Source of the DNA: Tissierellia bacterium
GTDB taxonomy: Bacteria; Bacillota; Clostridia; Tissierellales; Tissierellaceae
Direction of reading: 5' to 3'
Assembly: GCA_012519355.1 (NCBI GenBank)
Contig: JAAYQJ010000167.1
Coordinates: 1-33,584, forward strand
Length of the DNA stretch: 33,584 bases
Position numbers and translations under genes: made by a program
Part shown: positions 310 to 20,536 of the stretch, in pieces
How positions within the stretch are numbered: position 1 is the first letter of the stretch
Layout: each line of letters opens with the position of its first letter
Notes under the pieces: generated by a model
The model's input: only the letters and a program-made list of their open reading frames with translations
Database searches by the model: none
Told to the model about the DNA's origin: nothing

Positions 310-576
310 TTACCTTCCTTCTCTATTTTTTCTTTTTAAATTGTTTTGTTCCATTAGCTTTTTATTTATATAATCATATCCATTTGGTTTATGAGGTATA
401 AGACAGTTTGAACAATCTTTTATGCCTGAATTATCTATATAATTTCCACCACAATCCTCCAATAAATATAGCGGACAATAGCAAAACATACAATTAAACT
501 CTTCTTTGTTTTCTACCTTGTGACATGGAAAATAATCACAAGCAAGATTTCTATAAAATCTATATGAGTTTTCCAT
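310..576 (-). CDS. Cysteine-rich small domain protein (PF04071-like) in cobalamin operon
   Basis: 88 aa with CDYFPCHK...EFNCMFCYCPLY...DCGGNY...GIKDCSNCLIPH; matches my recollection of the Cys-rich small domain family found near cob/cbi genes. Confidence 0.8.
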   Translation of the reverse strand: MENSYRFYRNLACDYFPCHKVENKEEFNCMFCYCPLYLLEDCGGNYIDNSGIKDCSNCLIPHKPNGYDYINKKLMEQNNLKRKNREGR

Positions 577-1320
577 TTATTTTTCCCCCCTGCTTTTTTC
601 TCTGATTATTTTTTCAATCAAATCTAAATCTTTTATTCCATCTTCATCTTCTCTACCTATGACTATTGGTATTATACCTAATTCCTCACAGGCTTGTAAT
701 TTTTCTAGAGTGCCGCCTTTTTGTCCACTATCCTTCATTACACAGTATTTAACTTTATATTCTTTAAACATAATTTTGTTATATTCTTTAGAAAATGGAC
801 CTAATACTGCTACTATATCTTTCATCTGTATATTATATTTTCTACATTCCTCTATACTTTCCATAGCTGGAAGTATTCTATAGATAAATCTGTTGTTGCC
901 TCGTACTTTTTCAAAATCTCCAATATTTTTAGACCCTGTTGTAAAAAATACTGTTCCTGAAATGGTAGATAAATAATTATAGGCTTCTTCATAGTTTTTT
1001 AGATAAATAGCATTTATTTTAAACTCTGTTTTAGACCTTATATATTTAATATAATATATTTTCAAATCCTTTGCCACTTGTTTTGCATTTTCAGATACTA
1101 TTTTTGCATAAGGGTGGCTTAAATCAACAATTAGTGAGATTTTGTATTCTTTACAAAATCTCACCATTTCCTGATAATTCATTCTACCTGTAAGTAGTCT
1201 ATGACTATAAATAAACTCTTTTCCTCCATCTGTAGCTATAGTTACTATATAATTATTTAAATCCTTTATTCTATTTACTATTTCCCTAGCTTCGCTGGTA
1301 CCCCCTATTATCCAAATCAT
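577..1320 (-). CDS. cbiJ: Cobalt-precorrin-6A reductase
   Basis: N-terminal MIWIIGGTSEAREI, ...VDLSHPYA...; position in cbi operon. Confidence 0.9.
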   Translation of the reverse strand: MIWIIGGTSEAREIVNRIKDLNNYIVTIATDGGKEFIYSHRLLTGRMNYQEMVRFCKEYKISLIVDLSHPYAKIVSENAKQVAKDLKIYYIKYIRSKTEFKINAIYLKNYEEAYNYLSTISGTVFFTTGSKNIGDFEKVRGNNRFIYRILPAMESIEECRKYNIQMKDIVAVLGPFSKEYNKIMFKEYKVKYCVMKDSGQKGGTLEKLQACEELGIIPIVIGREDEDGIKDLDLIEKIIREKSRGEK

Positions 1321-2039
1321 TTTATATTATATCCTCTCGGTGTTATAATTCTCTTATCTTTAATATAAGAATTTGAATTTCCTATAATAAGTATTGAAAT
1401 CATGTCTACCTTTTCATAGTCAATATTATCTAAAGTAGCAATAGTTATTTCTGTACCAGCCCTACCAGAGTTTTTAACTATACCTACAGGTGTTTCTCCA
1501 CTTCTATGATTTAAAATTATATTTACTGCCTTTTTTAAATGATCTTTTCTTCCCTTTGACCTAGGGTTGTATATAGATATGACAAAATCTGCCTCTGCAG
1601 CATTTTCAAGTCTTTTTTCTATTACTTCCCATGGAGTAAGTAAATCAGATAAGCTAATGGAAGCATAATCGTGCATAATGGGAGAACCTAATTCTGCTGC
1701 TGCAGAAAAGGCAGATGTTATTCCCGGTATTATTTCTACTTCTATTTCTTCAGCTAATTCAAGGATTGGTCCAGCCATACCATAAAGTCCAGCATCTCCT
1801 GTACTTATTATTGCTGTGTCTTTTCCATTCTTAACCATGTCTATGGCTACTTTACATCTTTCTATTTCACCCTTCATTCCAGTAGAAAAAACTTTTTTCC
1901 CTTCTACTAAATCTCCCAAGTATTCTATATAAGGAGTATAACCTACTATTATATCACTAGCTTTTATTACTTCTACTGCTTTATAAGTCATATGTTCCCT
2001 ACCACCTGGTCCTATTCCAACTACATATAATTTAGCCAT
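1317..2039 (-). CDS. cbiH: Cobalt-precorrin-3B C17-methyltransferase
   Basis: KLYVVGIGPGGREHMTYKAVEVIKASDIIVGYTPYIEY; SAM-dependent tetrapyrrole methylase signature; 4-nt overlap with cbiJ. Confidence 0.93.
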   Translation of the reverse strand: MAKLYVVGIGPGGREHMTYKAVEVIKASDIIVGYTPYIEYLGDLVEGKKVFSTGMKGEIERCKVAIDMVKNGKDTAIISTGDAGLYGMAGPILELAEEIEVEIIPGITSAFSAAAELGSPIMHDYASISLSDLLTPWEVIEKRLENAAEADFVISIYNPRSKGRKDHLKKAVNIILNHRSGETPVGIVKNSGRAGTEITIATLDNIDYEKVDMISILIIGNSNSYIKDKRIITPRGYNIK

Positions 2040-3081
2040 TGTTCATCTCCTTTGATATTGATATTGTAATGCCATTAAATTTGAGTTTATTCCTTATGAT
2101 TTTACCTCCCAGTAAATACGCAGTAGGCTCTGATACAGAATAAACTCCTATGGTATCCTTCACAAATTGGGATTTTTCAAATTTATTTTCTATTTCCTTA
2201 ATTTCATCAATAGTAAATATCCTTATAGGACAATTAAAGTATTTTGCTGCTTCTATAATCCCTCTTTCATCCTTCTTTACTTCCACTGTGCCAATAGCTT
2301 TTATGCTTTTGATAGATAAATTTGCTTCCATAAAAGCTGTTTCTATGGCGTCTATTATCCTTTTTCTTTCTATTCCTTTCCTACATCCTATGCCAATATT
2401 AATATTTTTTGGTCTTAAATAAACATATGGAATATCTATATTGGACATATTATAAGTTTTGGAACTAATTATGATAAGTCCATTAAGATTTTTTATTTCA
2501 CTTGAAATAACACCTTGAGATAAATTAAAAAATTGTAAATCGTCTAGGATGATTAGATTTGGATAATCTATTATCTTATTATCTTCTGAATAAAATCCTA
2601 TGTTCTTTTCATTTACCATCATTGCTGCTATTTTAGTTATTTCTTTCATATCTTCTATATAATAATTATTTTTTTTTGCAAATAAATCAATAGATTCTAT
2701 ATCTCTATTATCTGAGGCAGTAGTAATGACAGGAGTAGCATTTATTCTCTCTCCTATCCACGCTGCTAATTTGTTTGCTCCTCCTATATGTCCAGATAAT
2801 AAGGATATGGAAAATCTCCCTAAATCATCTATAACTACTACTGCTGGATCTATAGTTTTATGTTTTATATATGGAGCTATCATCCTTATGGCAATTCCAG
2901 TGGAAGCCATAAACACTAAGCCATCATATTTCTCCCACAGATAGGGTATTATCTTTTTTATACCTCCTTCTACTTCTTTATTAGTATAATGATGTATAAT
3001 ATATTCTTCATCTTTTAAGCCTCTTATCTTGTCTCCTAGTTCTTTGCCTTTGTCAGTAAAGGATAGACAGGCTATTTTCAT
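2032..3081 (-). CDS. cbiG: Cobalt-precorrin-5A hydrolase
   Basis: GLVFMASTGIAIRMIAPYIKHKTIDPAVVVIDDLGRFSISLLSGHIGGANKLA, and C-terminal GIGCRKG...SVSEPTAYLLGG. Confidence 0.94.
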   Translation of the reverse strand: MKIACLSFTDKGKELGDKIRGLKDEEYIIHHYTNKEVEGGIKKIIPYLWEKYDGLVFMASTGIAIRMIAPYIKHKTIDPAVVVIDDLGRFSISLLSGHIGGANKLAAWIGERINATPVITTASDNRDIESIDLFAKKNNYYIEDMKEITKIAAMMVNEKNIGFYSEDNKIIDYPNLIILDDLQFFNLSQGVISSEIKNLNGLIIISSKTYNMSNIDIPYVYLRPKNINIGIGCRKGIERKRIIDAIETAFMEANLSIKSIKAIGTVEVKKDERGIIEAAKYFNCPIRIFTIDEIKEIENKFEKSQFVKDTIGVYSVSEPTAYLLGGKIIRNKLKFNGITISISKEMNNG

Positions 3082-3836
3082 TTAGCTCCACTCCTAAATT
3101 TATGAGTAAAACTTGGGTCATATAGTTTTGACCTGTCATATTCACCTTCTATAAAATTACCTACTAGGATTTGAGCCATTTTATTAATATTCTCTTTTTT
3201 TACTTTTTCTTCAATATCCTTAAGGGTTCCAAATATTATTTTTTCATCTTCCCAAGTAGCCTTATATACTATGGCTACTGGTATATTATCTGTTCCATAA
3301 CCCTTAACCAGTTTTTCCACAACCCTATCAATTTCTTGCACAGATAAAAATATGGCCATTGAAGCTTTATACTTAGCTAAAAATTCTAAATCTTCCTCCT
3401 CTGGTACAGGAGTTCTTCCTTCTATTCGTGTCAATATTACTGTTTGACTTACATTAGGTAATGTAAATTCTCTTTTTATTGAAGCACAGGCAGCTGTAAA
3501 GGAGCTAACTCCTGGTACTACTTCATAGGAAATACCTTTTATATCTAAAATATCCATTTGTTCTCTTATGGCTCCATATATTGTTGGGTCTCCTGTATGC
3601 AATCTAACTACCTTTAGATTATCTTTTTCTGCCCTTTCTATTACTTCAATTACTTCTTCTAATGTCATTGAAGCTGAGTTGTAAAACTTAGCCCCTTCTT
3701 TACAGAATTTTAAATGTTCATTAGATACTAATGAACCTGCATATATAACCACATCAGCTTCCCCTAAAAGTTTTCTTCCTTTAACTGTAATTAAATCTAC
3801 ATCTCCTGGTCCTGCACCTACAAAACTAACCATCAC
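3078..3836 (-). CDS. cbiF: Cobalt-precorrin-4 C11-methyltransferase
   Basis: VSFVGAGPGDVDLITVKGRKLLGEADVVIYAGSLV; RLHTGDPTIYGAIREQM. Confidence 0.95.
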   Translation of the reverse strand: MMVSFVGAGPGDVDLITVKGRKLLGEADVVIYAGSLVSNEHLKFCKEGAKFYNSASMTLEEVIEVIERAEKDNLKVVRLHTGDPTIYGAIREQMDILDIKGISYEVVPGVSSFTAACASIKREFTLPNVSQTVILTRIEGRTPVPEEEDLEFLAKYKASMAIFLSVQEIDRVVEKLVKGYGTDNIPVAIVYKATWEDEKIIFGTLKDIEEKVKKENINKMAQILVGNFIEGEYDRSKLYDPSFTHKFRSGAK

Positions 3837-4386
3837 TCTTCACTCCTTTTACTATGAATATAGGATTTTGTCCCTTTAAAATACCTATTTTATCCATAGT
3901 TGATGTTTGAACTAATTGGACTTCTATATCTTTATAATTATATTTATTTAATAGCTCCACAAATTGGTTTAGGTTTTTCAAAGTTATAAAATTGCCACAT
4001 ACAATTCCCTTTTCTTCCAGATTTGTCTCTAAATATGAGAATATTTCCTTTAATTTGCCTCCAGAGCCACCTATAAAACATTTATTAAATTTTTCATTGG
4101 GAAGATTTTCTGGTGCTTGTCCATGTACTATACTTAAATCGACTCCAAACTTATCACTATTTCTTTTTATTAATTCAATACCTTCAGCTTCTCTTTCTAT
4201 TGCCCACACTGTAGCTCCATGAAGAACAGCCTCTATAGATATGGAACCTGTTCCTGCTCCTATATCTAATAATCTATCTCCATTTTCTATTGCTAAATAT
4301 CCCAATGTTAAAATTCTAATATTGAATTTAGTCATTGGGATACTACCTCTTATAAACTCTTCATCCTTAATCCATTTTATTTTCAA
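3826..4386 (-). CDS. cbiT: Cobalt-precorrin-6B C15-methyltransferase (decarboxylating)
   Basis: IRGSIPMTKFNIRILTLGYLAIENGDRLLDIGAGTGSISIEA; class I SAM methyltransferase next to cbiE. Confidence 0.93.
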   Translation of the reverse strand: MKIKWIKDEEFIRGSIPMTKFNIRILTLGYLAIENGDRLLDIGAGTGSISIEAVLHGATVWAIEREAEGIELIKRNSDKFGVDLSIVHGQAPENLPNEKFNKCFIGGSGGKLKEIFSYLETNLEEKGIVCGNFITLKNLNQFVELLNKYNYKDIEVQLVQTSTMDKIGILKGQNPIFIVKGVKSDG

Positions 4387-4963
4387 TTATCACCACTCCA
4401 AGGGAAGAAATATTTTCTATTTCTTCTCCAATATTTTTAATAATTATTTTCTCATCATCATAGGATAAATTAAATCCTACATAAATCTTTCCTTTAATAT
4501 TTAGTCTATATAATTCCTTTGATATTTTATCTGGAGTATTAAATTTATCTATTAAAAGTATACTAAGTTTATGTGATTTAATCTTTTCTAAATTATCTTC
4601 TCTTCCATGTAAAGATAAAAAGAAAGCATTTTGCCATGACTTCTGAAGCTTACCCATTAAATATTGAAAAGAAGATAATCCAGGTAATACTTCTTTTATT
4701 GGTAACCCTTTCCCCTTTAAAAAATCAACTATACCAAAGAAGTTTGGATCTCCTGATGCCAATAATAATATTTCTTTTTCTTTATCCATATATTTTAATA
4801 TTTCTTCTACCTTATTTACTTGAATAATATCTTCTCTAATATGTTTAAGGGAATTTGTTACTCTACCAAAGGCCAAAATATACTTTGCCTTTTCTATTCT
4901 CATTTTCACATCTAAAGTTAAATATTTAGGATTTCCTGGACCTACTCCAGCTACAATTAACAT
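4367..4963 (-). CDS. cbiE: Cobalt-precorrin-7 C5-methyltransferase
   Basis: LIVAGVGPGNPKYLTLDV; LLASGDPNFFGI; overlaps cbiT. Confidence 0.9.
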   Translation of the reverse strand: MLIVAGVGPGNPKYLTLDVKMRIEKAKYILAFGRVTNSLKHIREDIIQVNKVEEILKYMDKEKEILLLASGDPNFFGIVDFLKGKGLPIKEVLPGLSSFQYLMGKLQKSWQNAFFLSLHGREDNLEKIKSHKLSILLIDKFNTPDKISKELYRLNIKGKIYVGFNLSYDDEKIIIKNIGEEIENISSLGVVIIENKMD

Positions 4964-6033
4964 ATATTCACCCCTTTTTCCATGGAATATATGATTACTT
5001 TCACTTTATAATCTTCATCCTTTAAATATTTTCTAATCCTTTCTTCTGCTCCTTTTTCCATATATTTTGCCACCTTACCATATCCTGCTTCTATACAGAT
5101 ATTTAGTCCTTCCTCAGCTGTAATGGATTTATTAACTTTATTTAATAACTTCATGGGAGCACCCATAAGGGCCAAATAATATACGAAGGCTTCCATTCTT
5201 CCATCACACACTTTACTATGAGTATTAAATATACCTATGGAGAGTTTTGAAAATTTTCCTATATGTCCTATTAAAGTTATGGATTTAAAGCCTTTATTAT
5301 ATATATAAAGTAAACTATCTCCTAGAAAATTAGATACTTTAACTTTTGGCCCCTTTATTTCCAATTCTTCACATAACTTTTCCCCATAGTTTCCCGGCAC
5401 TAAAATAATATGTTCTTTTCCTAGAGTATCTGCTATCATATCTACTTCCATATATATGGTCTTTAACAGTGCTTCTTCACTCATGGGATATACTATGCCT
5501 TTGGTACCTATAATGGATATGCCACCTTCGATTCCAATATTTTTGTTATAAGTTTTTTTCCCTATTTCTTCTCCCTCTGGGGCGAAAATTAAAATATCAT
5601 ATCCTCTATCTGAAACTTCCCTTACTTCTTTTTCTATCATTTTCTTTGGTACAGGATTAATAGCAGCATGGCCAATTTCACCAAATAATCCTTTTCTTTT
5701 TATTTTCCCTATACCTTGTCCACCATCTATAAAAACAATTCCATCATTTCTACTAGATACTGTTGCATATATTTCTATGCCATCTGTATTATCAGGATCG
5801 TCTCCGGCATCTTTTACAATGGAACATGTTGCCCTATTACCTTCAATTAACTGGCTGTTCACTTTAAGTTTTAGTCTAATGCCTGCTGGTGTATCTATTT
5901 CTACATAATTTATTATCTTTCCTGTTTCAAGCATAATAGCTGCTGCTTTTGCTGCCCCTGCTGCACAACTACCTGTGGTATATCCACATCTTAAGTTTTT
6001 TCCATCTTTAATTACATATAAATCTAATGTCAT
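4957..6033 (-). CDS. cbiD: Cobalt-precorrin-5B C1-methyltransferase
   Basis: LRCGYTTGSCAAGAAKAAA; CSIVKDAGDDPDNTDG; GIGKIKRKGL. Confidence 0.96.
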   Translation of the reverse strand: MTLDLYVIKDGKNLRCGYTTGSCAAGAAKAAAIMLETGKIINYVEIDTPAGIRLKLKVNSQLIEGNRATCSIVKDAGDDPDNTDGIEIYATVSSRNDGIVFIDGGQGIGKIKRKGLFGEIGHAAINPVPKKMIEKEVREVSDRGYDILIFAPEGEEIGKKTYNKNIGIEGGISIIGTKGIVYPMSEEALLKTIYMEVDMIADTLGKEHIILVPGNYGEKLCEELEIKGPKVKVSNFLGDSLLYIYNKGFKSITLIGHIGKFSKLSIGIFNTHSKVCDGRMEAFVYYLALMGAPMKLLNKVNKSITAEEGLNICIEAGYGKVAKYMEKGAEERIRKYLKDEDYKVKVIIYSMEKGVNIC

Positions 6034-6650
6034 CTTCCTACTACCATGTATAAAAGGGCATTGATAATAGAAGCAGATACATTACTTCCTCCTTTATTGC
6101 CTACTGTAGATATAGATGGTATAGAGAATTGTCTTAAATATTCCTTAGACTCTTGAGCACCAACAAAACCTACTGGTACACCTACTATAAATCTAGGATT
6201 AACTTTACCTTCCTTAAATAATTCTAATAGTCTAAATAATGCAGTTGGTGCATTGCCTATTACAAATATATCTATTCCTTCTCTAACGGCTAAGTCTACT
6301 GCACAGGCCGACCTAGTAGTACCTAATTCCTTCGATAAGGAAAATACCCTTTCATCATCAATAAAGCATTTTAGCTGACAATTTGCCTTTTTAAGTGCAG
6401 GCTTGTTAATTCCCATGTAGGCCATCTTAGTATCTGTAAATATGGTTTTTCCCTCTAAGATAGCCTTTTTGGCTTCTTCTATAAATCCATATTTAAATTC
6501 AATTATATTTCTATAATCTAAATCTCCAGTGGTGTGTATCATTCTCTTTGCTACTAACTTTTCTTCTTTAGTAAAGGAAGTATCTCCCATGACCTCATCT
6601 ATAAGAGCCATACTTTTATTTTCTATTTCCATAGGATTTTTAATATACAA
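6030..6650 (-). CDS. cbiC: Cobalt-precorrin-8 methylmutase
   Basis: VAKRMIHTTGDLDY; FTDTKMAYMGI; PRFIVGVPVGFVGAQESKEYL. Confidence 0.95.
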   Translation of the reverse strand: MYIKNPMEIENKSMALIDEVMGDTSFTKEEKLVAKRMIHTTGDLDYRNIIEFKYGFIEEAKKAILEGKTIFTDTKMAYMGINKPALKKANCQLKCFIDDERVFSLSKELGTTRSACAVDLAVREGIDIFVIGNAPTALFRLLELFKEGKVNPRFIVGVPVGFVGAQESKEYLRQFSIPSISTVGNKGGSNVSASIINALLYMVVGR

Positions 6651-6652
6651 TT

Positions 6653-7972
6653 TTATCCCTCTTTTCTTATGTTTTTAACAATATCCAATAAATAATTTAA
6701 GGATTCCATATTTCCAAGGAAATTAATATGTTGATAATAAGCCAAGACATTTTTATAGATATATCCACATTGCCATTTTCTTTTATTGTTCATTGGCTTT
6801 GCAATATAAAATATTGGCTCCAATTCTATATGGATTAATGATCGATGATATTCATGACCAGTAATTATAGTTCCTTGTTTTCCCAGTAAAGTATCTTGGT
6901 TTAAATCTATATTTACATATCCAAATCTTTGCAATCTATCTGTCATTTTAGCATGCCCATTAAATATATTGCACATGGGATAATTTTCTATTGAAGAGAC
7001 TAAATACATAAAACCTCCAGCCTCTGCAATAATAGGTTTTCCTTTCCCTGCATTTTCTCTAATAGAAATAATCATATCCTTATTTAAGGACAATTCCTTT
7101 TTATAAATTTCCGGATACCCACCACCTATATATATAAGGTCAGCCTGTGGAAGTTTTTTATCTCTAATTGGGGAAAAATATTCTACTTTGCATATATTTT
7201 CCAGTAGGTTAAGGTTTTCATTATAATAAAAGTTAAAAGCTTCATCATAGGCGATGGCTACTTTTATATCTTTTTTTCTATCATATTCATAGGGTGTAAT
7301 TTCAATTTCACTAGCTAATTTTAGTATTTTATCTATATCTATTGTTTTTTCCACTGCTATTGCTGCCTTAGATATTAATTCTTCAGTGTCCTTTTTTTCC
7401 TCAGGCTGCATAAGCCCTAAGTATCTGCTTTCTACTTCTAAAGATATATCATGGGATAGATAACCTAATACTTCAATATCTATATATTCTTTAATTTTTT
7501 CCTTTAATAATAAATACATATCTTTACTTACTTTGTTTAGTATAAGCCCTTTAATCTTTGAGCCAGGAAATTCTACCATACCTTTTATTTTGGGTATGGC
7601 TGAAAACATTTCACCTTTAGGTCTATATACTAATATGGCTGGAATATCTAATTCCTTCGATATATGAAAGCTTGAATTTTCAAAGGTATTAAATATTCCA
7701 TCAAAATATCCCATGGCTCCCTCTATTATTCCATATTCTCCATAATTCATAGACAAAGATTCTCTGATACCTTTTTTTCCCATTAAATGCATATCAAGAT
7801 TTCCGGCTCTTTTTCCTGATGCCAGTTCTAGATATTTAAGGTCAATGAAGTCTGGGCCTGTTTTAAATGCAGATATATTTAATCCTTTGTTTTTCATTGC
7901 CCTAATAAGTCCTAAAGTAATAGTTGTTTTCCCAGTATTACTAGAAGGAGCTGTAATCATTATGGATTTCAT
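6653..7972 (-). CDS. cbiA: Cobyrinate a,c-diamide synthase with apparently inactive glutaminase site
   Basis: ITAPSSNTGKTTITLGL P-loop; GGGYPEIY; GHEYHRS. At the expected catalytic Cys (AECGG) the sequence reads IIAEAGGFMYL (codon GCT, plus positions 7019-7021). Confidence 0.92.
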   Translation of the reverse strand: MKSIMITAPSSNTGKTTITLGLIRAMKNKGLNISAFKTGPDFIDLKYLELASGKRAGNLDMHLMGKKGIRESLSMNYGEYGIIEGAMGYFDGIFNTFENSSFHISKELDIPAILVYRPKGEMFSAIPKIKGMVEFPGSKIKGLILNKVSKDMYLLLKEKIKEYIDIEVLGYLSHDISLEVESRYLGLMQPEEKKDTEELISKAAIAVEKTIDIDKILKLASEIEITPYEYDRKKDIKVAIAYDEAFNFYYNENLNLLENICKVEYFSPIRDKKLPQADLIYIGGGYPEIYKKELSLNKDMIISIRENAGKGKPIIAEAGGFMYLVSSIENYPMCNIFNGHAKMTDRLQRFGYVNIDLNQDTLLGKQGTIITGHEYHRSLIHIELEPIFYIAKPMNNKRKWQCGYIYKNVLAYYQHINFLGNMESLNYLLDIVKNIRKEG

Positions 7973-9022
7973 CTACATCTTCTCCAATTCATTAAAGATT
8001 TCTATAAGTTTTTCATTGTCTTTCCTTGCCTTTATGGCAACCCTAATATAGTTTTTGTCTAATCCCGTAAAACTGGAACATTTTCTTATGACTATACCTC
8101 TTTCCAGGAAAAAATTAAATACATATTCTTCATCCCATTTTAATAATTTAATTAAAATATAATTAGTTTCTGTAGGAAATACTTTTATAAGGGAAAGTCT
8201 TGATAATTCTTGATACATATATTGTCTTTCTATTTCTATATATTCTTTACTTGTTCTTATATATTCTTTGTCATTAAATATAAAATTCCCTGCTGCCTCT
8301 GCAAAAGAGTTTACACTCCAAGGCAATTCTATTTTTGATATTTCTTTTGCTAAAGCCATAGATGTACATCCATAGCCAAGCCTTATACCCGGCAGTGCAA
8401 AAAACTTTGTAGCAGCTCTTATAATTCCTACATTCTCATAATTTGATTCTCTAAATAATTCTATACTATCATAATCCCCAGAACAAAATTCGAAAAAAGC
8501 CTCATCTAATACTAGATATGCCCCTGATTTTTTAATTATATTATGAAGTATTGTTAATTCTATTTTATCTAACCTAAGTCCAGTTGGATTATTTGGATTA
8601 CCAAGTATTATTAAATCATCTTTTTCGATAATATTTCCAATAGCTTTCATATCTATAGTAAAATCAGAATTGTATGGAATTCTAATCACTTCTTTTTCAT
8701 GGATAATAGCTCTTTTTTCGTATTCTGAAAAAGAGGGAGTGCATATCAATACTCTATTTGCTAGCATTATAAAATCATTTATTAACTCTACTGCACCATT
8801 ACCAACTATGGTGTTTTCCTCGTTACATTTTAAATAATTAGATATAGACTTTTTTAATTTTCTATATTTCATATCTGGATATGCTTCAAGGTTTTTAAAA
8901 CTATCCATTAATACTTCTCTTAACCCCTTTGGTGGACCTAAAGGATTTATATTGCTGCTATAATCTATTAGTTCTCCATTATAATACATTTCATAAGATA
9001 ATAAATCTCCTCCATGTTCCAT
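7973..9022 (-). CDS. cobD: Threonine-phosphate decarboxylase / histidinol-phosphate-aminotransferase-like PLP enzyme
   Basis: MEHGGDLL...YSSNINPLGPPKGL; NPNNPTG; PLP-Lys region AATKFFALPGIRLGYG; SD GAAGGTGATGAA before ATG. Confidence 0.9.
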   Translation of the reverse strand: MEHGGDLLSYEMYYNGELIDYSSNINPLGPPKGLREVLMDSFKNLEAYPDMKYRKLKKSISNYLKCNEENTIVGNGAVELINDFIMLANRVLICTPSFSEYEKRAIIHEKEVIRIPYNSDFTIDMKAIGNIIEKDDLIILGNPNNPTGLRLDKIELTILHNIIKKSGAYLVLDEAFFEFCSGDYDSIELFRESNYENVGIIRAATKFFALPGIRLGYGCTSMALAKEISKIELPWSVNSFAEAAGNFIFNDKEYIRTSKEYIEIERQYMYQELSRLSLIKVFPTETNYILIKLLKWDEEYVFNFFLERGIVIRKCSSFTGLDKNYIRVAIKARKDNEKLIEIFNELEKM

Positions 9023-9059: not shown

Positions 9060-10560
9060 TCATAACTTGTAATGCTTGAATTCACTGTATTATATACAGT
9101 GGATTTTTCTTATCACTCAAAAATATTTCTATTTTCAAAAAGGGTTTTCGCCTCTCTTTGTCGAATAATATAAGTACTACCAAATATTATATTAAGGAGG
9201 CGAAGCCCTTGTATGAACGCCAATTAATCTTTAATAACATTGATTTATTTGCATCTAACAGCAAATCAAAATTTTATGAAAAAATCTTTGATTCCATTGA
9301 TTTATCTAACTTCCCAAAGTATCATCCATCTAAGTTTGGACCTACTGGCTATAGTCTACATGCACTTTTTAGGTCCTTTATTGTCATGAAAACTGAAAAA
9401 CTGGCTAAGATTACTGAATTACTTAGTTTTCTTGATACTAATCCATATATTGCCTATTTATGTGGTTTTGAGCCTTTTAAACCTTTACCTTCTTACTCTG
9501 TTTTTCAACGGTTTATTAAGAATTTAGATAATAATATATTAAAAAATATTATGAAATCTCAAGTCTTAAAACTTGTTGAGCTTGAGTTTGTTGATAATTC
9601 TTTTGTCTCATGCGATGCTACTCCTGTTTTTGCTAATACTAAACAAAATAATCCTAAGTCCTTTGTCTCTAACAAGTTTAATAAGGATAATTATCTTAAA
9701 TCTGATTTAGATTGTAAGTTAGGAGTTTACACTGCATCTAATTCCCATAACGAGAAGAAATATGAATTCTACTGGGGTTATAAAAATATTGTTCTAACAG
9801 ATGCTATTTGTGGTCTCCCTATTGCTGAAATTACAACAACTGCTGATGTCTCTGAAGCCTCTATGGTTATTGATTTTCTAAAAGAAACTAATGAATGGTT
9901 TTCTCTTAAAGAAACCTATTTTATTGCTGATAAAGCCTATGATACAAAAGATATTCATAACTTTATTCGTTATGACCTTCAAGGTCATGCATTTATCCCG
10001 CTTAATCCTCGCAACACTAAAGAAAGAAAGATGTTTAATGGTACTAATGTTATTTGTGAAGCAGGACTATCTATGCATAAGGATGGAAAACAGTATTTTG
10101 ACTCTTATATTAAGCAAAAGTTTTGTTGTCCTTTTAGAACTAAAAAAGACGATTCTTTGTGTCCATGTAAGCACCCTAAATACTTCAACGGCAAGAAAAA
10201 TAGAGGATGCACCAGCTATATTACATTAGGTACTGATTATCGTTCTTCTATAAATAGAGAATCTATCTTTTTTAAAAAGACTTATGCTTTAAGAACAGAG
10301 TCTGAAAGGTACAATTCAAGGTGGAAAAACCTTAATCTTGAAAAACCTACAGCACGAAATATTAATTCTATTACTAATTTAAATACCTTAGGTCATATCA
10401 CATTATTATCTTTGGCTCTTGCAGCTATTATTGATAATCAAAAAGATAAAATTAGATCTTTAGCTAAGTTTAAAAAGATATCATAGGTTAATGTATGACT
10501 TATCTTCTTACTTTTAGGATTAAAACACTAATCCTAGCTTTGCTGTGCCTTTTTTTATTT
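9060..10560 (+). mobile_element. Insertion sequence carrying one intact transposase gene (ends approximate)
   Basis: Sole plus-strand gene within a minus-strand gene train. Flanked by imperfectly related palindromes (9083-9101 CACTGTAT-TAT-ATACAGTG; 10515-10536 TAGGATT...AATCCTA). Terminal inverted repeats and target duplication could not be defined by eye. Confidence 0.7.
9158..10486 (+). CDS. DDE transposase (IS1182/IS4-like, DUF772-type N-terminus)
   Basis: 442-aa ORF with FGPTGYSLHALFRSFIVMK...; candidate DDE residues in CDATP, IADKAYD and ALRTESERYNSRWKN; Cys-rich CCPF...CPCKHP...C insert. More likely start is TTG at 9209 (LYERQL), 8 nt after AAGGAGG at 9194-9200. Confidence 0.9.
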   Translation: MSNNISTTKYYIKEAKPLYERQLIFNNIDLFASNSKSKFYEKIFDSIDLSNFPKYHPSKFGPTGYSLHALFRSFIVMKTEKLAKITELLSFLDTNPYIAYLCGFEPFKPLPSYSVFQRFIKNLDNNILKNIMKSQVLKLVELEFVDNSFVSCDATPVFANTKQNNPKSFVSNKFNKDNYLKSDLDCKLGVYTASNSHNEKKYEFYWGYKNIVLTDAICGLPIAEITTTADVSEASMVIDFLKETNEWFSLKETYFIADKAYDTKDIHNFIRYDLQGHAFIPLNPRNTKERKMFNGTNVICEAGLSMHKDGKQYFDSYIKQKFCCPFRTKKDDSLCPCKHPKYFNGKKNRGCTSYITLGTDYRSSINRESIFFKKTYALRTESERYNSRWKNLNLEKPTARNINSITNLNTLGHITLLSLALAAIIDNQKDKIRSLAKFKKIS

Positions 10561-10643: not shown

Positions 10644-11441
10644 TTAATCAATTATGCTCATCTCTATAATTTTATGGGGTATAAAGTATGGACAATCATT
10701 TATCTTATCTTCATATATATGGGCTTCTATTCTAAATACATCTTTTAATAATTTAGTTTGTAATATACTATTAGGTTTTCCATATTGGCATACTTCTCCA
10801 TCTTTTAGTACATAAATTTTATCTGAATATCTTGCAGCTTGATTTAAATCATGTAAAACCATTATTACAGTAATGCCCAAGGATTGGTTAAGTTCCTTTA
10901 CCAATTCTAATACTTCTAACTGGTAAGATATATCTAAATATGTGGTAGGTTCATCTAGGATTAATATTTTTGGTTTTTGAGCTAAGGCCATGGCTATCCA
11001 AGCTCTTTGTCTTTCCCCACCTGAAAGATTTCCTATATACCTATCTTTTAATTTTACAAGTCCAGTTTTTTCAATTGCCCAATGGATAATATCTTTATCA
11101 TCCTTACCTATTCTTTTCCCAAAACTTAAGTGAGGATACCTTCCATAGGATACAAGGTTTTCCACAGTAATATCAGCAGATACATGTTTTACCTGTGGCA
11201 ATATGGCCATTTCTCTGGCTATTTTTTTAGTTTGAATTGTATATATATCTTTTCCTCCAAGATATATATTTCCCGAATATGCCTTAATATATCTTGACAA
11301 TGCCTTAATAAGAGTAGTTTTTCCTGAACCATTTGGTCCAATAATAGTAACTATTTCTTCATTATTTACTCTAAAATTAGCATTTTTTAATATTAATTTA
11401 TCTCCATATTTAATTTGTAGATTTTTAGTTTCTATACCCAT
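10644..11441 (-). CDS. Iron-siderophore/cobalamin-type ABC transporter ATP-binding protein (BtuD/FecE-like)
   Basis: Walker A GPNGSGKTT, signature LSGGERQRAWIAMALAQ, Walker B ILILDEPTTYLD. Confidence 0.93.
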   Translation of the reverse strand: MGIETKNLQIKYGDKLILKNANFRVNNEEIVTIIGPNGSGKTTLIKALSRYIKAYSGNIYLGGKDIYTIQTKKIAREMAILPQVKHVSADITVENLVSYGRYPHLSFGKRIGKDDKDIIHWAIEKTGLVKLKDRYIGNLSGGERQRAWIAMALAQKPKILILDEPTTYLDISYQLEVLELVKELNQSLGITVIMVLHDLNQAARYSDKIYVLKDGEVCQYGKPNSILQTKLLKDVFRIEAHIYEDKINDCPYFIPHKIIEMSIID

Positions 11442-11443
11442 GG

Positions 11444-12442
11444 CTACATTGCCTCCTTTTTCCTTAATAAATAAAGAAAAAATGGTGCTCCAAGTGCTGA
11501 CATTATAATCCCTACTGGTATCTCTGCCGGTGCAAATAAAGTCCTAGATAAGGTATCACAAATCATAACAACTGATGCACCGAAGAATATAGTTCCGGGA
11601 AAAAGGTATCTATAATCTGAACCTATAAATAGTCTAACCATATGAGGTACTATAAGTCCAACAAAGCCTAATAAACCTACTACTGATACTGCCGCCCCAG
11701 CTAACAAAGATGAAATTATAATAAAAATAAATCTAGTTTTTTCCACCCTTATACCTAAGCCTGTGGCAACTTCATCTCCCAACATAAGAATATTTAATTT
11801 ATCTGGTAAAAATAATGTAAGTATTATACCTATCACTGCATAGGGTAAAATCATTCTAACATCTTTCCAAGTTATAGCCGAAAGACCTCCCACCATAAAT
11901 CCTAATACTCCTTGAACTCTATCTGGAAAAAAAGTCATTAGGGCATTTGTCCCTGCACTAAATAAAGATGATACTGCTACTCCTGCCAATACCAGTCTTG
12001 TAGGCAGTGCTCCTTCTTTCCAAGCCAAAGAATAGATAAATAATGTGGCAAATAAAGCGCCTATAAAGGCACCTATTGGTACTAAATAATAGTACTGGGG
12101 AAAGACAATAAGGATAATAAAAGCAAAAAAACCTCCCCCAGAGGAAACCCCTATTATATTAGGGCCTGCTAGGGGATTTCTCATTATTCCTTGAAGTATG
12201 GCACCAGATAATGATAAGCATATGCCTACTAAGGCAGCAACTATAGTCCTTGGTAATCTTACATTCCATATTATTTGGTAATTTACAGTATCTTTTTCAT
12301 ATATAATTGATTTAACTATTCCTAGGGGAGATATTTTTACTGCTCCATTTCCAAGGCTAAAGAAAAAACTGGCTATGAATAAGAGAATAAATATGGTAAT
12401 TATTATATTTTTTTTGAATCTCTCTTTTCTACTTTTAATCAT
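11444..12442 (-). CDS. FecCD-family ABC permease (BtuC-like)
   Basis: LRLPRTIVAAL-type motif (VRLPRTIVAALVGICLSLSGAILQGIMRNPLAGPNIIGVSSGGG); GLIVPHMVRL. Confidence 0.93.
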   Translation of the reverse strand: MIKSRKERFKKNIIITIFILLFIASFFFSLGNGAVKISPLGIVKSIIYEKDTVNYQIIWNVRLPRTIVAALVGICLSLSGAILQGIMRNPLAGPNIIGVSSGGGFFAFIILIVFPQYYYLVPIGAFIGALFATLFIYSLAWKEGALPTRLVLAGVAVSSLFSAGTNALMTFFPDRVQGVLGFMVGGLSAITWKDVRMILPYAVIGIILTLFLPDKLNILMLGDEVATGLGIRVEKTRFIFIIISSLLAGAAVSVVGLLGFVGLIVPHMVRLFIGSDYRYLFPGTIFFGASVVMICDTLSRTLFAPAEIPVGIIMSALGAPFFLYLLRKKEAM

Positions 12443-12456
12443 AGCCTACTCCTTTT

Positions 12457-13497
12457 CTATTTAAATACATCTGGATATAAAATCTTTGCTAGTCCCTCAT
12501 ATGCTTCTGCATATCTATGGTTTGGCTTAAACATATAAAGATCCTTAGGTAAAATTATATACCTATTGTTTTTTACTGCTGATAAAGAGCTCCATGCCGG
12601 ATTAGATTCTACATCTTCTTTTAATCTTTCCATTACCTTATCCATATCGCTACCTGTAGTCTGTACAAATATAAAATCAGGATCTTCCTCAAGGATTTTT
12701 TCAATACTAAAGTTTGAAGTACTTAATGCATCATTTGAGTAATCAGCAATATTTATAGTGTGTAAATCTTGTAACATTTCTCCTACTGTAGAATCTGAAC
12801 CTCTGGCTGTAACAGATTTTGCACTGGCCATCATTATCAGCACTTTATATTCCTTATCTTTTGGTGATTTATCTATTATGCTTTCTATTTCTTGTTTTAC
12901 TTTTAGAACATTTTCTTCATACAAATCTTCTCTTTCATTTAAAGCTGAAAATAGTCTTGCCAATTTAAAATAATCTTCTTTTACATAGTATTCCATGGCT
13001 ATGAAAGGTATATTATTTTCTTCTAAAATAGGTACTAATTCCATTTGTGATTTTTGTGTTGATATTAAAATTACCAAATCTGGTTCCAGTGATAATATTT
13101 TTTCTGCACTTATGGAGCCAAGGGAACCTACTATTTCAGCATCTTCTGTTCCTTCTATAGGTGCTTGTCCTACCGATTCCTCAATTTTTCCAACTATTTT
13201 TCCACCATTTCTCATCCAAATATCTAAATAAGAATTATATATAACTACTACTCTTTCAGGGTTCTTCTTTAAAGTTACTTCTTCTCCTCTACCATCTATA
13301 AAAGATACAGTTTCATCTGTAATTGTTATTCCATACTCTTCTACTTCTTGTCTATTATCTTGGTTTGCTTCCGTTTCTTGTGTAATATCTCCTGTTTGTA
13401 CTATTTGCTCGTCCCTTTCTTTAGTATTACATCCAGTTAAAATTGTTGCTACTAAAGCTAACACTAGTATTAGTGATAATATTTTTTTGTTTTTCAT
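12457..13497 (-). CDS. Periplasmic-binding-type lipoprotein of ABC importer (BtuF/FepB-like)
   Basis: Lipobox ATILTGC; RVVVIYNSYLDIWMRNGGKIVG; EKILSLEPDLVI. Confidence 0.9.
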   Translation of the reverse strand: MKNKKILSLILVLALVATILTGCNTKERDEQIVQTGDITQETEANQDNRQEVEEYGITITDETVSFIDGRGEEVTLKKNPERVVVIYNSYLDIWMRNGGKIVGKIEESVGQAPIEGTEDAEIVGSLGSISAEKILSLEPDLVILISTQKSQMELVPILEENNIPFIAMEYYVKEDYFKLARLFSALNEREDLYEENVLKVKQEIESIIDKSPKDKEYKVLIMMASAKSVTARGSDSTVGEMLQDLHTINIADYSNDALSTSNFSIEKILEEDPDFIFVQTTGSDMDKVMERLKEDVESNPAWSSLSAVKNNRYIILPKDLYMFKPNHRYAEAYEGLAKILYPDVFK

Positions 13498-14159
13498 TAT
13501 AATCCTCCTTGTTTTCTACCTAAAATCAAAGATATATAGTCTTTATCATTTAATATTTTTTCCCTATCCGTTATGATTTCTTGTTCTTCTAATGTTGCCC
13601 TTTTAATATACTTAAAGATGAAATCATTGTTTTCTAATGAATCTAATATTTTTTCTTTTTCCCTAAAAGTTTTTAACACTACTATGGAATTTATCTTTTC
13701 TAATAAGTTTTCATCTAACTCATCACATAATAATAGGCTTTCACCCTTTATAGTAAGAGGGATTTTACTTGCACTAGCTGCCGCCACAAAGGACGGAATT
13801 CCTGAGATTATTTCCACATCTATATCTTTACCTTCTAATTCTTTCATAATATATATAAATGTACTATATATCATAGGGTCACCTATGGTAAGAAATGAAC
13901 CTATCTTACCTTCAGGTATTTCCTTTAATATTATTTCTGCTGCCTTTTTATAATCTTCACCAGTAACCTTTCCCATTGGTAAATCAATAAGTATTATTTT
14001 TTTATTGCTAATGAAATCTTTTGCTGTATCTATAGCCATATTTTTTCCCTTATTATTTGGAGCAAATATAACTGATGAGTTCTCCATTGCCTTGACGGCT
14101 TTAATAGTTAGAAGTTCCTTATCTCCTGGGCCTGTACCAATACCATATAATTTCTTCAT
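13497..14159 (-). CDS. cbiL: Cobalt-precorrin-2 C20-methyltransferase
   Basis: LYGIGTGPGDKELLTIKAVKAME; GDPMIYSTFIYI. Confidence 0.93.
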   Translation of the reverse strand: MKKLYGIGTGPGDKELLTIKAVKAMENSSVIFAPNNKGKNMAIDTAKDFISNKKIILIDLPMGKVTGEDYKKAAEIILKEIPEGKIGSFLTIGDPMIYSTFIYIMKELEGKDIDVEIISGIPSFVAAASASKIPLTIKGESLLLCDELDENLLEKINSIVVLKTFREKEKILDSLENNDFIFKYIKRATLEEQEIITDREKILNDKDYISLILGRKQGGL

Positions 14160-14911
14160 TATCTCTCTCCTATTATTTCTCCAAGATGTTCTAAAAATAT
14201 ATCTTGGATAAGCTTATATTCACCTAAACCTCTTAAACATACTTCAACTTGAAAACCTTCCCTTTCAAGTATTGATTTCCAAGAGTCATCATCCTCAGAA
14301 GCCATATCATTTACTACATGATCTCCTGCTACTAGCATAAAGGGTTTAAGTTTTATCTTTTTTATATCTTTTTCTTTTAATTCTTTTATTATATCTTCTA
14401 TGGTTTTACTTCCTTCCACTGTACCAATAAAGACATTTGTGAAACCTTTTTCATGATAAGTATTTTCTAATATTTCATAGACTTCATCCGCCTCGTGATT
14501 AGAGCCATGACCCATGAATACTAATGCCTCGTTATCTCCTAATTCATTGATTTCTATGGATTCAACAATTCTTATATAATCATTCTGTAGGCTCAATAAT
14601 GGCAATCCTAACTTTACATCATATTTAGTAAGTTTCTCATATTCATGTCCAGGGATTATATGTAGAGGCTGGATATATATTTCTTCTATACCTTGATCTT
14701 TCATCTCTCTCATTGCTTCGTCAGGGTTAAACACATGGATATTGTCCCTTTTCTTTAATATGTTGATAACCATTTGGGAGGTAAATGCCCTTAAAACTAA
14801 GTAATCTTTTTCATATCTTTCTTTTATTAGGTTCTCTATGCTTTCTATGCATAGCTTTCTAGTATTCTGGTAGGTAGTTCCAAAACTAGCTATTATTATC
14901 CCTTTTTTCAT
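14159..14911 (-). CDS. cbiK: Sirohydrochlorin cobaltochelatase
   Basis: KGIIIASFGTTYQNTRKLCIESIE; VFMGHGSNHEAD; LKPFMLVAGDHVVNDMAS. Confidence 0.94.
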   Translation of the reverse strand: MKKGIIIASFGTTYQNTRKLCIESIENLIKERYEKDYLVLRAFTSQMVINILKKRDNIHVFNPDEAMREMKDQGIEEIYIQPLHIIPGHEYEKLTKYDVKLGLPLLSLQNDYIRIVESIEINELGDNEALVFMGHGSNHEADEVYEILENTYHEKGFTNVFIGTVEGSKTIEDIIKELKEKDIKKIKLKPFMLVAGDHVVNDMASEDDDSWKSILEREGFQVEVCLRGLGEYKLIQDIFLEHLGEIIGER

Positions 14912-15711
14912 AAAATCTTCCTTTCTTCATATGATAAAAACTCTTCTTCGTTTTTAAATAAAATAGTATTAAATTTCTCATGAATTCTAACAAGCCAAGG
15001 TTTTGTTAAGGAAGCTTCATTTAATAATTTATCTTCGGAAAAAACCTTTTGCTTTTCACCTTCGTCAATTATACTACCTTTACTTAATATATAAATATAA
15101 TCACAGATATCATAAATTAAATCCATATCATGACTAGATATTATAATGGTTTTACTACTACTTATCTTATTGATTATCTCTTTCATTTGTTTTGTCATAT
15201 AAGGGTCTAGACCGGAGGTTGGTTCATCTAATAGGAGTATGCTTGATTCCATGACTAAGACACCGGCAATAGCAATCCTTTTCTTTTGACCATAGCTTAA
15301 AAAGTGTATAGGCTTATCCACTAAATCAAGGGCATCAACTTGCATCAAGGCATTAACTACCTTCTCTCTTATTATATCCTCACTAACACCCATATTTCTC
15401 AATGAAAAGGCTATATCATCAAATATATTTGAGTAAAATAACTGCTGATCAGGATTTTGAAATACCATATTAACTTGTTTCTTATACTCCCTTAAATAGG
15501 CTTTATTATATTTTAGGGGAATATCATTATATGTTATTGAGCCTTTATTTGGCTTTAAAATCCCCATAATATTTAGAAACAAAGTTGATTTTCCTGAACC
15601 ATTTGCTCCAATAATCCCTATTACCTTCCCCTTGGAAGTGTCTAAATTTATATTATTTAATGCTTCTGTTCCATCCTCATATTTATAATATAGATTGTTT
15701 ACTTTTAACAT
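14908..15711 (-). CDS. cbiO: Energy-coupling cobalt transporter ATPase
   Basis: GANGSGKSTLF; MVFQNPDQQLFYSNIFDDIAFSLRNMG; LSYGQKKRIAIAGVL. Confidence 0.95.
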   Translation of the reverse strand: MLKVNNLYYKYEDGTEALNNINLDTSKGKVIGIIGANGSGKSTLFLNIMGILKPNKGSITYNDIPLKYNKAYLREYKKQVNMVFQNPDQQLFYSNIFDDIAFSLRNMGVSEDIIREKVVNALMQVDALDLVDKPIHFLSYGQKKRIAIAGVLVMESSILLLDEPTSGLDPYMTKQMKEIINKISSSKTIIISSHDMDLIYDICDYIYILSKGSIIDEGEKQKVFSEDKLLNEASLTKPWLVRIHEKFNTILFKNEEEFLSYEERKIL

Positions 15712-16392
15712 TTAATCACCTAGTTTAAATTCTCCATCATATAGTTTACATTCTAAAGATATATTCATCTCATTATGTTTTATAAATACTCTGGTGAAAA
15801 GATTTCTAATAAGTAATGCTGTAGACCTTAATGCAATTCTTTTATTTTCATATCCAAACTTCATGGTTTGTGCTAAGTAAATATTATTTGCTTCCTCAAT
15901 GAAGATAAATATACTTCTATAAATCAGTACCATTAATTCAATTAACAGATTAGGTACTTTTAATTTCTTTAGGGCCCTAATAATATCCATTATTGGAGTA
16001 GTTAAAATCAAGAAATATACTGATGTTAAAGATGATAATACTGTTATAAATAGTCTCGCTCCTTTATATAAGGATTCAGTAGTTATACCAATACAAATAT
16101 TCCTTACCTGGAAATAGTAGAGATAATTATAACCATTGACTGAAACCACTATGGTCATTATACTAAGTAACAAAAAAGATAAAGGTAATATTAGCATCTT
16201 AAAATAACTTCTAACTGGAATCTTAGCTATTCCAAGGACTAGAACAGCCATAAAAACGATGGTAAATAAATCAAAATAATAATTGTTGATTAATCTTGGT
16301 ATAGCTATCCCTCCACAGGAAAGAAGAATCTTTACCTGTGGAGAGCAGTCTTTCAATCTATTGGTATATGCATATCTATCTATTAAGAGCAA
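15712..16392 (-). CDS. cbiQ: Cobalt ECF transporter transmembrane protein
   Basis: CbiQ-like hydrophobic protein located between cbiN and cbiO; LIELMVLIYRSIFIFIEEANNIYLAQTMKFGY. Confidence 0.92.
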   Translation of the reverse strand: MLLIDRYAYTNRLKDCSPQVKILLSCGGIAIPRLINNYYFDLFTIVFMAVLVLGIAKIPVRSYFKMLILPLSFLLLSIMTIVVSVNGYNYLYYFQVRNICIGITTESLYKGARLFITVLSSLTSVYFLILTTPIMDIIRALKKLKVPNLLIELMVLIYRSIFIFIEEANNIYLAQTMKFGYENKRIALRSTALLIRNLFTRVFIKHNEMNISLECKLYDGEFKLGD

Positions 16393-16669
16393 CTTTATAT
16401 CTTTCCTTTAACACACCTAAAATATAACCTATAAGTCCAGCACCAATAGCCACTTGAAGTGAGAATAACAAGCTCTCTATCTCACCACTTGGTGGTTCCC
16501 AAAATGACTCGAACCATGGCTCATAATCTGGATTTATCTCTTGAATCACTTCCTCCGCTTGTCCATCAGCTCCACCAAATTCAGAATCTCCTTTTATAAT
16601 TAAGGGAGTAATTACTATTATGGCTATTAAAAATAGTAGAATAATATTTTGTTTAAATAGACTCTTCAA
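16376..16669 (-). CDS. cbiN: Cobalt transport protein CbiN
   Basis: 97 aa; [55 protein letters not shown]. Confidence 0.96.
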
Positions 16670-17381
16670 GCTTTATCACTCCTTCTTTTCTATATTCTTG
16701 AATAAGATTAAATACCATTACTGTTACAATCCCCTCAACAATTGCCAATGGCAATTGAGTAACTGCAAATACAGATAAGAACTTTGTAAAGGATACTATA
16801 ATTCCTCCCGTAGTATCTGGGAATGCAAGGGAAAGTTGGATTGACGTAACTATATAAGTAGCCAAATCCCCTAAACTTGCTGCTAGAAAAACAGTAAAGC
16901 CTTTATTTTTACCACCTTTACTCAAAAGCTTATAAATTCCAAAAGATACAAATGGGCCTACTACCGCCATTGAAAATGCATTTGCTCCCAAAGTTGTTAT
17001 CCCTCCATGAGCTAATAATAGGGCTTGAAATAACAGTACTATAGTTCCTATAACTGTCATAGTCATTGGTCCAAATAATATGGCACCTAGCCCTACTCCT
17101 GTTGGGTGAGAACAAGAACCTGTAACCGATGGAATTTTAAGAGCAGATAAAACAAATACGAATCCACCTACTAGACCTAGCATCATTTTATGATCTTGTC
17201 CTTCTCTTAATCCTTTCCCTACCTTTTTAAGTCCTATGACTAAAAATGGTAGAGTTAGTACTGACCAGACAATTGCCCATTTAAGAGGTAAAAAACCCTC
17301 CATAATATGCATTGCCTGTGCAACCTGTGGAGTCGCAACTAAAACAATAAGAGCAATCCACATTAAAAACTTCTTTTTCAT
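16653..17381 (-). CDS. cbiM: Cobalt ECF transporter S component CbiM
   Basis: [67 protein letters not shown] before ATG. Confidence 0.97.
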
Positions 17382-17477: not shown

Positions 17478-17551
17478 GGAAATTATACTAATACAAATAT
17501 AATACAAAATAGTATAATTATAAGTTTTTCCTTCCCTCCGAAGGTCACTTC

Positions 17552-17714
17552 AATACCATTAGGCAGGTCTCCTGACTTGTGATTCATTTTACTCTCAGCA
17601 CCTTCCCGGATTGGTCCAGTGGTATACGCTGATTTCATCATCACTTACAGTAGCGGGGGCTGTATGGGATTTTCACCCATTTCCCTATTAATCCTTAACG
17701 GAACCTAAAGTATT
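17552..17714 (-). promoter_or_regulatory. Cobalamin riboswitch aptamer upstream of cbiM
   Basis: Minus strand contains GGGTGAAAATCCC...CAGCCCCCGCTACTGTAAG...CACTGG...GGTGCTGAGAGTAAAATGAATCACAAGTCAGGAGACCTGCC (B12 box). P1-type pairing AATACttTAGG / CCTAatgGTATT closes the element. Confidence 0.95.
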
Positions 17715-17734
17715 CTTATTCAATTTTCATTTTT

Positions 17735-17803: not shown

Positions 17804-18739
17804 TTACTTTATTAGCTTGATTAAAGTATAAATAACTACTAGCAACACTTGGCTACGGTACATAATTTCTATAGAATTTTTTATATGTTTTTTGTTTATA
17901 GGATTTATTTTATCTCCAATAGTAGGCTTTTCTACTAGCTTTCCATGATAATAGTTGCTACCACCTAATTGGATACCTAAAAGTCCTGCTACCGCCCCTT
18001 CAGGATAAGGAGCATTTGGACTTTTGTGATTTTTCCTATCTCTAAACATTATTTTAATACCATTTACAAGATTAAACCTACCTATAGACCCTAAGGACAT
18101 AAGTAAGCCTGTAATTCTAGCTGGTAGAAAATTAAATATATCATCTAGCTTTGCAGGAAAATATCCAAGGTCCTTATACTTTTCATTCATATAGCCAAGC
18201 ATAGAGTCCATAGTATTAATAAATTTATAGGCTAGTCCACCTGGTGCTCCTAATAGGGTAATGTAAAATAAAGGAGCTATGACTCCATCCGAAGTATTTT
18301 CTGCTACTGTTTCAACTGTTGCCCTAACAATTCCTTCTTCATATAAATTCTTTGTATCCCTACCTACTATATAGGATAACCTAATTCTTGCTTCTTCTAT
18401 CCCTAAGTTCAAGGCCTTATATACCTTCATAGCCTCATAATGCAAGGATCTTGCAGCTATGCAAGTATATATTAGATAAACATTGACTATATTATACAAG
18501 ATGTTATAGGGTTTAATTGCTTTTAGCAGTAAAAATGGTATAAGGAATCCAAGACTAATATTGATTACTACAATTATAAAGCCTGCAAATTTCAAGCCCT
18601 TATTAGTTTTAGCTATTCTTCTAGCTACTTTGTCCTCAAGGGATATTATCCTCCCCATTAGCTTTACTGGGTGGGGAAAACTATAGGGGTCTCCTAATAT
18701 AAAGTCTAATATTACTGCCAATATTATATTGGTTACCAT
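17804..18739 (-). CDS. cbiB: Adenosylcobinamide-phosphate synthase
   Basis: DFILGDPYSFPHPVKLMGRII; RDTKNLYEEGIVRATVETVAENTSDGVIAPLFY; FNFLPARITG. Confidence 0.94.
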   Translation of the reverse strand: MVTNIILAVILDFILGDPYSFPHPVKLMGRIISLEDKVARRIAKTNKGLKFAGFIIVVINISLGFLIPFLLLKAIKPYNILYNIVNVYLIYTCIAARSLHYEAMKVYKALNLGIEEARIRLSYIVGRDTKNLYEEGIVRATVETVAENTSDGVIAPLFYITLLGAPGGLAYKFINTMDSMLGYMNEKYKDLGYFPAKLDDIFNFLPARITGLLMSLGSIGRFNLVNGIKIMFRDRKNHKSPNAPYPEGAVAGLLGIQLGGSNYYHGKLVEKPTIGDKINPINKKHIKNSIEIMYRSQVLLVVIYTLIKLIK

Positions 18740-20377: not shown

Positions 20378-20536
20378 AATTTTCTCCCTAAATAGTTCCA
20401 AGAGCAACCTCCCCGGCCTCAAACTAATTTCCTTATAAGAAATTCATTCTTTTAGATGATTCCATTATATCAAATAAAAAAATATTCTCTACTCTTTTTT
20501 ACTTTTCCTTTATTATTGTCCCAAAAAATGCTTGAA

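Follow-up and report, generated by a model that had tools for sequence, protein, structure and literature searches.

Loss of the glutaminase nucleophile in CbiA and of the glutaminase domain in CbiP at a cobalamin locus of a Tissierella relative, with ammonia as the probable nitrogen donor

CPS1 is the textbook natural case of a glutamine amidotransferase (GATase) domain that has lost its nucleophile. The human and tetrapod enzyme keeps its class I GATase domain, carries Ser294 in place of the nucleophilic Cys, and uses free ammonia only (PMC4655335, PMC7657897). A laboratory equivalent exists in S. aureus, where GatD, the GATase_3-family partner of MurT, has C94 as its nucleophile (PMC5871853, PMC3266927). 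In the GatD C94G mutant the glutamine-dependent activity is gone and the NH3-dependent activity remains, and MurT continues to require bound GatD (PMC3266927). GMP synthetases accept external ammonia; in Archaea the enzyme has two subunits, and its ATPPase, which lacks a fused GATase, uses external ammonia in vitro (PMC10526850). B12 biosynthesis is described as depending on glutamine for its amidation steps (PMC7242693). Clostridium ultunense, placed in the Tissierellaceae, abounds in digesters with high ammonia; it lacks glutamine synthetase and assimilates ammonia by glutamate dehydrogenase (PMC5924567).

The results presented here concern a window of 33,584 nucleotides (contig JAAYQJ010000167.1) from the draft genome of a Tissierella relative (263 contigs, 84% complete). 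The window harbors cbiMNQO, cbiK, cbiL, cbiA, cbiC-J, cbiPB and a cobalamin riboswitch (Table 1), the context of anaerobic corrin ring synthesis. Like other members of the CbiA/CobB family (PRK01077, TIGR00379), the cobyrinic (hydrogenobyrinic) acid a,c-diamide synthases, its CbiA is a full-length two-domain protein that scores above the family cut-offs and is encoded within a complete B12 operon. Unlike them, it has Ala in place of the nucleophilic Cys, which by the known mechanism would make glutamine impossible as the donor. CPS1 has an unrelated synthase domain and is a eukaryotic nitrogen-disposal enzyme, whereas the enzymes described here are bacterial B12 and GMP enzymes with joint and repeated loss. 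GatD C94G shares with CbiA the GATase_3 family and the nucleophile position, but is a laboratory mutant in a system of separate subunits; CbiA of the window is natural, clade-fixed and a single chain. The C. ultunense findings cited above include no glutaminase-site loss in CbiA, CbiP or GuaA (PMC5924567). No earlier account of glutaminase loss in CbiA, in CbiP or within this order came to light in a search of mainly non-subscription literature. Events of this kind have a precedent in CPS1; what is new, as far as that search shows, is the enzymes and lineage affected and the repeated occurrence of the loss in parallel.

Table 1. Features of the B12 locus and adjacent genes in the window.
Feature	Position	Strand	Basis or remark
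small Cys-rich "zf-like" protein (PF04071)	310..576	-	at the end of the cbi operon
cbiJ	577..1320	-	
cbiH	1317..2039	-	
cbiG	2032..3081	-	
cbiF	3078..3836	-	
cbiT	3826..4386	-	
cbiE	4367..4963	-	
cbiD	4957..6033	-	
cbiC	6030..6650	-	
CbiA/CobB	6653..7972	-	NCBIfam and Pfam profiles, alignment
codon for H415, homologue of GatD catalytic His189, retained	6728..6730	-	GatD alignment
GHEYHRS (residues 372-378)	6839..6859	-	not the GatD-equivalent His
codon 318, GCT (Ala), GATase nucleophile position	7019..7021	-	GatD alignment
GGGYPE, oxyanion-hole-type motif of GATase domain	7109..7126	-	alignment rows
P-loop SNTGKTT, ATP-dependent amide synthase domain, intact	7922..7942	-	
CobD-like threonine-phosphate decarboxylase / aminotransferase	7973..9022	-	
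IS-type transposase (DDE_Tnp_1 + DUF772)	9158..10486	+	between CobD-like gene and importer, opposite strand to the B12 genes
FecCD/periplasmic-binding/ATPase importer, BtuFCD type, three genes	10644..13497	-	
tetrapyrrole methylase, cbiL	13497..14159	-	cbiL by position
cbiK cobalt chelatase	14159..14911	-	
ABC ATPase, cbiO	14908..15711	-	cbiO by position
cbiQ	15712..16392	-	
cbiN	16376..16669	-	
cbiM	16653..17381	-	
cobalamin riboswitch	17545..17723	-	RF00174, 125.8 bits; upstream of cbiM
cbiB	17804..18739	-	directly downstream of truncated cbiP
cbiP/cobQ cobyric acid synthase, 280 aa, ATPase half only	18771..19613	-	CobQ profile 2-238 of 480
TIM-barrel AP_endonuc_2, xylose isomerase-like protein	19625..20422	-	directly upstream of truncated cbiP

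Ala318 of CbiA and its spread in the order

CbiA is a 439-aa protein with an N-terminal ATP-binding domain containing a P-loop and a C-terminal GATase_3 domain (107 bits, Pfam), the architecture of the family, and it exceeds both NCBIfam CobB/CbiA cut-offs (PRK01077, 403.1 bits vs 254; cobB TIGR00379, 344.8 vs 261.4). A single copy is present in the genome and no second copy was found. The ORF contains GKPIIAEAGGFMYL and reads KPIIAEAGGFMYL around codon 318, which is GCT (Ala) where GATase_3 enzymes carry the nucleophilic Cys. A PDB search with the single CbiA sequence gave no match, and a profile search succeeded; the nearest solved folds to the CbiA model are GatD and CTP synthase. When a profile of 19 relatives was aligned to the solved S. 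aureus GatD, residue 318 paired with GatD Cys94, which bears out the sequence-only reading in placing Ala at the nucleophile, at the codon it had named. That reading had also taken GHEYHRS as the catalytic-His region. This candidate is rejected by the same alignment, in which GatD H189 pairs with H415, within LAYYQH. H415 is present in all Ala-type (12/12) and all Cys-type (50/50) rows, and GGGYPE is kept in every Ala-type row. CbiA thus has the catalytic His, but not the nucleophilic Cys, of a class I (triad/dyad) glutamine amidotransferase. In the AlphaFold model (pLDDT 86.5), strand 314-316 is followed by helix 318-324, and this predicted strand-turn-helix at 314-324 is the layout expected of a nucleophile elbow.

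The substitution is not confined to the window. CbiA was readable at the nucleophile column in 88 of the 199 genomes of the order that were surveyed, with Cys in 50, Gly in 22, Ala in 12 and Ser in 4, such that 38/88 are non-Cys. In both the first alignment of relatives and the 88-genome alignment, outgroups have Cys and relatives of the window have Ala, Gly or Ser. A CbiA tree computed without the nucleophile column requires at least seven changes between Cys and non-Cys and at least 12 residue changes. Ala occurs in Tissierella praeacuta DSM 18095, T. pigra, Tissierella sp. P1 and the single-contig genome G020, encoded by GCT or GCA. Within the Ala clade, dN/dS of the GATase domain is 0.06-0.25, close to that of the CbiA ATPase domain; the dead GATase domain is under purifying selection. 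This clade-wide spread escaped the sequence-only reading, as did the loss in CbiP within the same window. In five genomes of family f4 (G132, G136, G151, G165 and G047) with a Gly-type CbiA, the catalytic His is also replaced, by Gln or Glu; glutamine synthetase was detected in these genomes, and the CobQ Cys is kept in four.

Glutaminase domains of CbiP, GuaA and other enzymes

The CbiP encoded in the window scores 362.1 bits against PRK00784 (cut-off 273) and 309.9 against TIGR00313 (cut-off 309.9), the latter reaching the equivalog cut-off from half of the profile. Pfam found no GATase_3 in the 280-aa protein, nor is there a separate GATase_3 protein in the genome, the sole GATase_3 being that of CbiA, which lacks the nucleophile. 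Neither neighbor supplies the missing half, as the downstream gene is cbiB and the upstream gene encodes the TIM-barrel protein. CobQ is short throughout the family of the window, with frames of 280-325 aa, too small to accommodate a GATase domain, besides two pieces cut by contig ends. Across the order, CobQ is short in 32 and full in 6 genomes with non-Cys CbiA, vs 8 short and 37 full with Cys. In two of the six exceptions, G047 (L187) and G163 (L191), both with Gly-type CbiA, the full-length CobQ has itself lost the nucleophile motif. In G163 the GuaA nucleophile is also Gly, and glutamine synthetase gave no match.

Short CobQ is also found in genomes that lack CbiA (G002, G009, G014, G016 and G025-G027; e.g., L056, L061 and L063). 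These organisms may salvage a precursor that enters after the CbiA step; a salvage class with CbiP and without CbiA has been tabulated (PMC6593275). CobQ frames of 283-297 aa occur outside the order as well, in genomes G218, G447, G370, G470, G538, G316 and G567 of the class, and GATase-less CobQ may therefore have more than one origin within the class.

GMP synthetase has undergone a similar loss. On contig C176 of the window's genome, guaA closely follows a guaB-like gene and begins, with an ATG preceded by a ribosome-binding site, at the ATPPase domain. The protein lacks the N-terminal GATase domain, and the contig ends before the 3' end of the gene. Short GuaA relatives in the family are 314-323 aa and have no GATase domain, and GuaA consists of the ATPPase only in G000, G006, G013 and G017-G020. 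In CbiA-bearing genomes of family f6, GuaA is full-length with Gly or Glu at the nucleophile, and elsewhere the nucleophile is Asn or Ala, or the domain is partly deleted. GuaA has Cys in all 11 examined genomes that have Cys CbiA and full CobQ. The short GuaA resembles the archaeal ATPPase, but the latter has a separate GATase subunit in Archaea, of which the complete, Tissierella-type genome G020 showed no counterpart. In that genome GATase_3 is present in CbiA only, and CTP synthase, which retains its Cys, is the sole PF00117 protein. Short GuaA therefore has no partner in sight, and glutamine use has not been given up entirely. No partner GATase subunit for GuaA, CbiA or CbiP was found in searches for GATase_3 in the window's genome and G020 and for PF00117 in G020. 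In G085, of which 1.6 Mb (61%) was sampled, E. coli queries for carA, carB, asnB, glmS, purF, gltB and purL, which may miss distant forms, gave no match, nor was a GatA amidase signature found.

Glutamine synthetase in the order

Glutamine synthetase (PF00120) had no match in the window's genome or in the other genomes of family f1 with Ala-type CbiA, including G020; the same search was positive in 14/14 control genomes. It was unmatched in 30/38 non-Cys genomes vs 6/50 Cys genomes (Fisher p ~1e-10, kinship ignored). Only six independent pairs were usable for comparing loss of CbiA Cys with loss of glutamine synthetase, of which one or two show a difference, almost always in the direction expected (p ~0.5), and the independent-pairs test of CbiA against short CobQ was likewise underpowered. 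Because the Fisher test ignores kinship and the independent pairs are too few, the link between the CbiA and glutamine synthetase losses, which is carried by a few large clades, is suggestive. There are exceptions in both directions: eight non-Cys genomes have a glutamine synthetase match, and four genomes of family f13 have none yet keep the Cys. Five f13 genomes (G074, G053, G086, G039 and G065) have no glutamine synthetase match and a short CobQ, with Cys kept in CbiA in 4/5 and in GuaA in 3/5; they possibly represent an intermediate stage.

Source of the amide nitrogen

Taken on the genomic evidence, it is likely that CbiA, CbiP and GuaA of this organism run on free ammonia, as an adaptation of lineages short of glutamine. 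Ordinary CbiA also uses ammonia, a property not counted as evidence here. The ATPase domain of CbiA would activate the a and c carboxylates, with free ammonia rather than glutamine supplying the amide nitrogen. CbiA may have kept its GATase domain for the fold, for substrate binding and as an ammonia route to the synthase site. CbiP, the next amidation enzyme, goes one step beyond in having no GATase domain at all, as does GuaA of the same genome, while relatives have lost the GuaA nucleophile by point mutation. Behind these changes there is probably a single cause, namely that lineages lacking glutamine synthetase and inhabiting ammonia-rich niches turned to ammonia; the ecology of C. ultunense agrees with this. 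The requirement of MurT for bound GatD, even with dead C94G, fits a dead but conserved CbiA GATase domain whose role would be to maintain a functional synthase, with NH3 coming in from solution. GatD C94G used NH3 at pH 8.5 but not at pH 7.5 (PMC3266927), and ammonia use at cell pH may therefore need high ammonium.

Other explanations are less consistent with the data. A separate glutaminase subunit could feed ammonia to dead CbiA and to the GATase-less CbiP and GuaA, as split GATases exist in GatD/MurT and archaeal GMP synthetase, and some genomes of the order encode a stand-alone GATase_3 protein of 214-255 aa. However, neither the window's genome nor complete G020 has a GATase_3 protein other than CbiA, and CTP synthase is the sole PF00117 protein of G020. 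A separate glutaminase would also have no obvious place to dock, since CbiA still carries a GATase domain of its own; such a subunit is quite unlikely. It is very improbable that CbiA still hydrolyzes glutamine through another residue. CbiA contains three Cys, at 261, 334 and 402, and no replacement nucleophile is evident among them: C402 is frequent in Cys-type enzymes too, and C334 is missing from 4/12 Ala-type rows. The best candidate is C261, the sole Cys enriched in Ala-type enzymes (12/12 vs 2/50 Cys-type rows), which retain H415 and GGGYPE. Yet C261 is present in just 20/38 of all non-Cys rows, and in the predicted model it lies between helix 251-260 and strand 262-266, away from the nucleophile elbow at 314-320. 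The domain losses in CbiP and GuaA point in the same direction as the change in CbiA, and GatD C94G has no glutamine activity.

The missing nucleophile could also mean that CbiA is a decaying or non-catalytic relic in an organism that does not amidate cobyrinate, and activity is beyond what genome data alone can demonstrate. Against this are the complete anaerobic cobinamide operon with its cobalamin riboswitch, the intact P-loop, the low dN/dS of both domains and the persistence of the Ala form in cultured species and single-contig genomes; we give the relic little credence. As the window comes from a 263-contig draft, a sequencing or assembly artefact was also considered. The sequence-only reading had argued that a single-base error cannot account for the codon, and this argument stands: at least two base changes separate GCT from a Cys codon. 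Many independent assemblies, some of them from cultured strains, share the Ala residue, which is encoded by two different codons (GCT and GCA); it is therefore not a read error, and the chance of an artefact is close to nil.

The losses in CbiA, CbiP and GuaA are a warning for annotation, as such proteins are named as glutamine-hydrolyzing yet are without the needed residue or domain. To judge from CbiA without the nucleophile and CbiP without the GATase domain, a whole lineage can dispense with the glutaminase halves, and the two routes of loss at one locus provide ready variants for separating synthase from glutaminase function. We also favor, with less assurance, a broader view of the Tissierella order, in which several lineages would have dismantled glutamine-based nitrogen transfer stepwise: glutamine synthetase disappeared, and different routes (domain deletion, or replacement of Cys with Ala, Gly, Ser, Asn or Glu) turned GMP synthetase, CbiA and CbiP into ammonia-only enzymes, leaving only some glutamine users, CTP synthase among them. 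The repeated parallel loss in GuaA, together with the absent glutamine synthetase, offers a testable instance of a switch of nitrogen currency by a group of bacteria.
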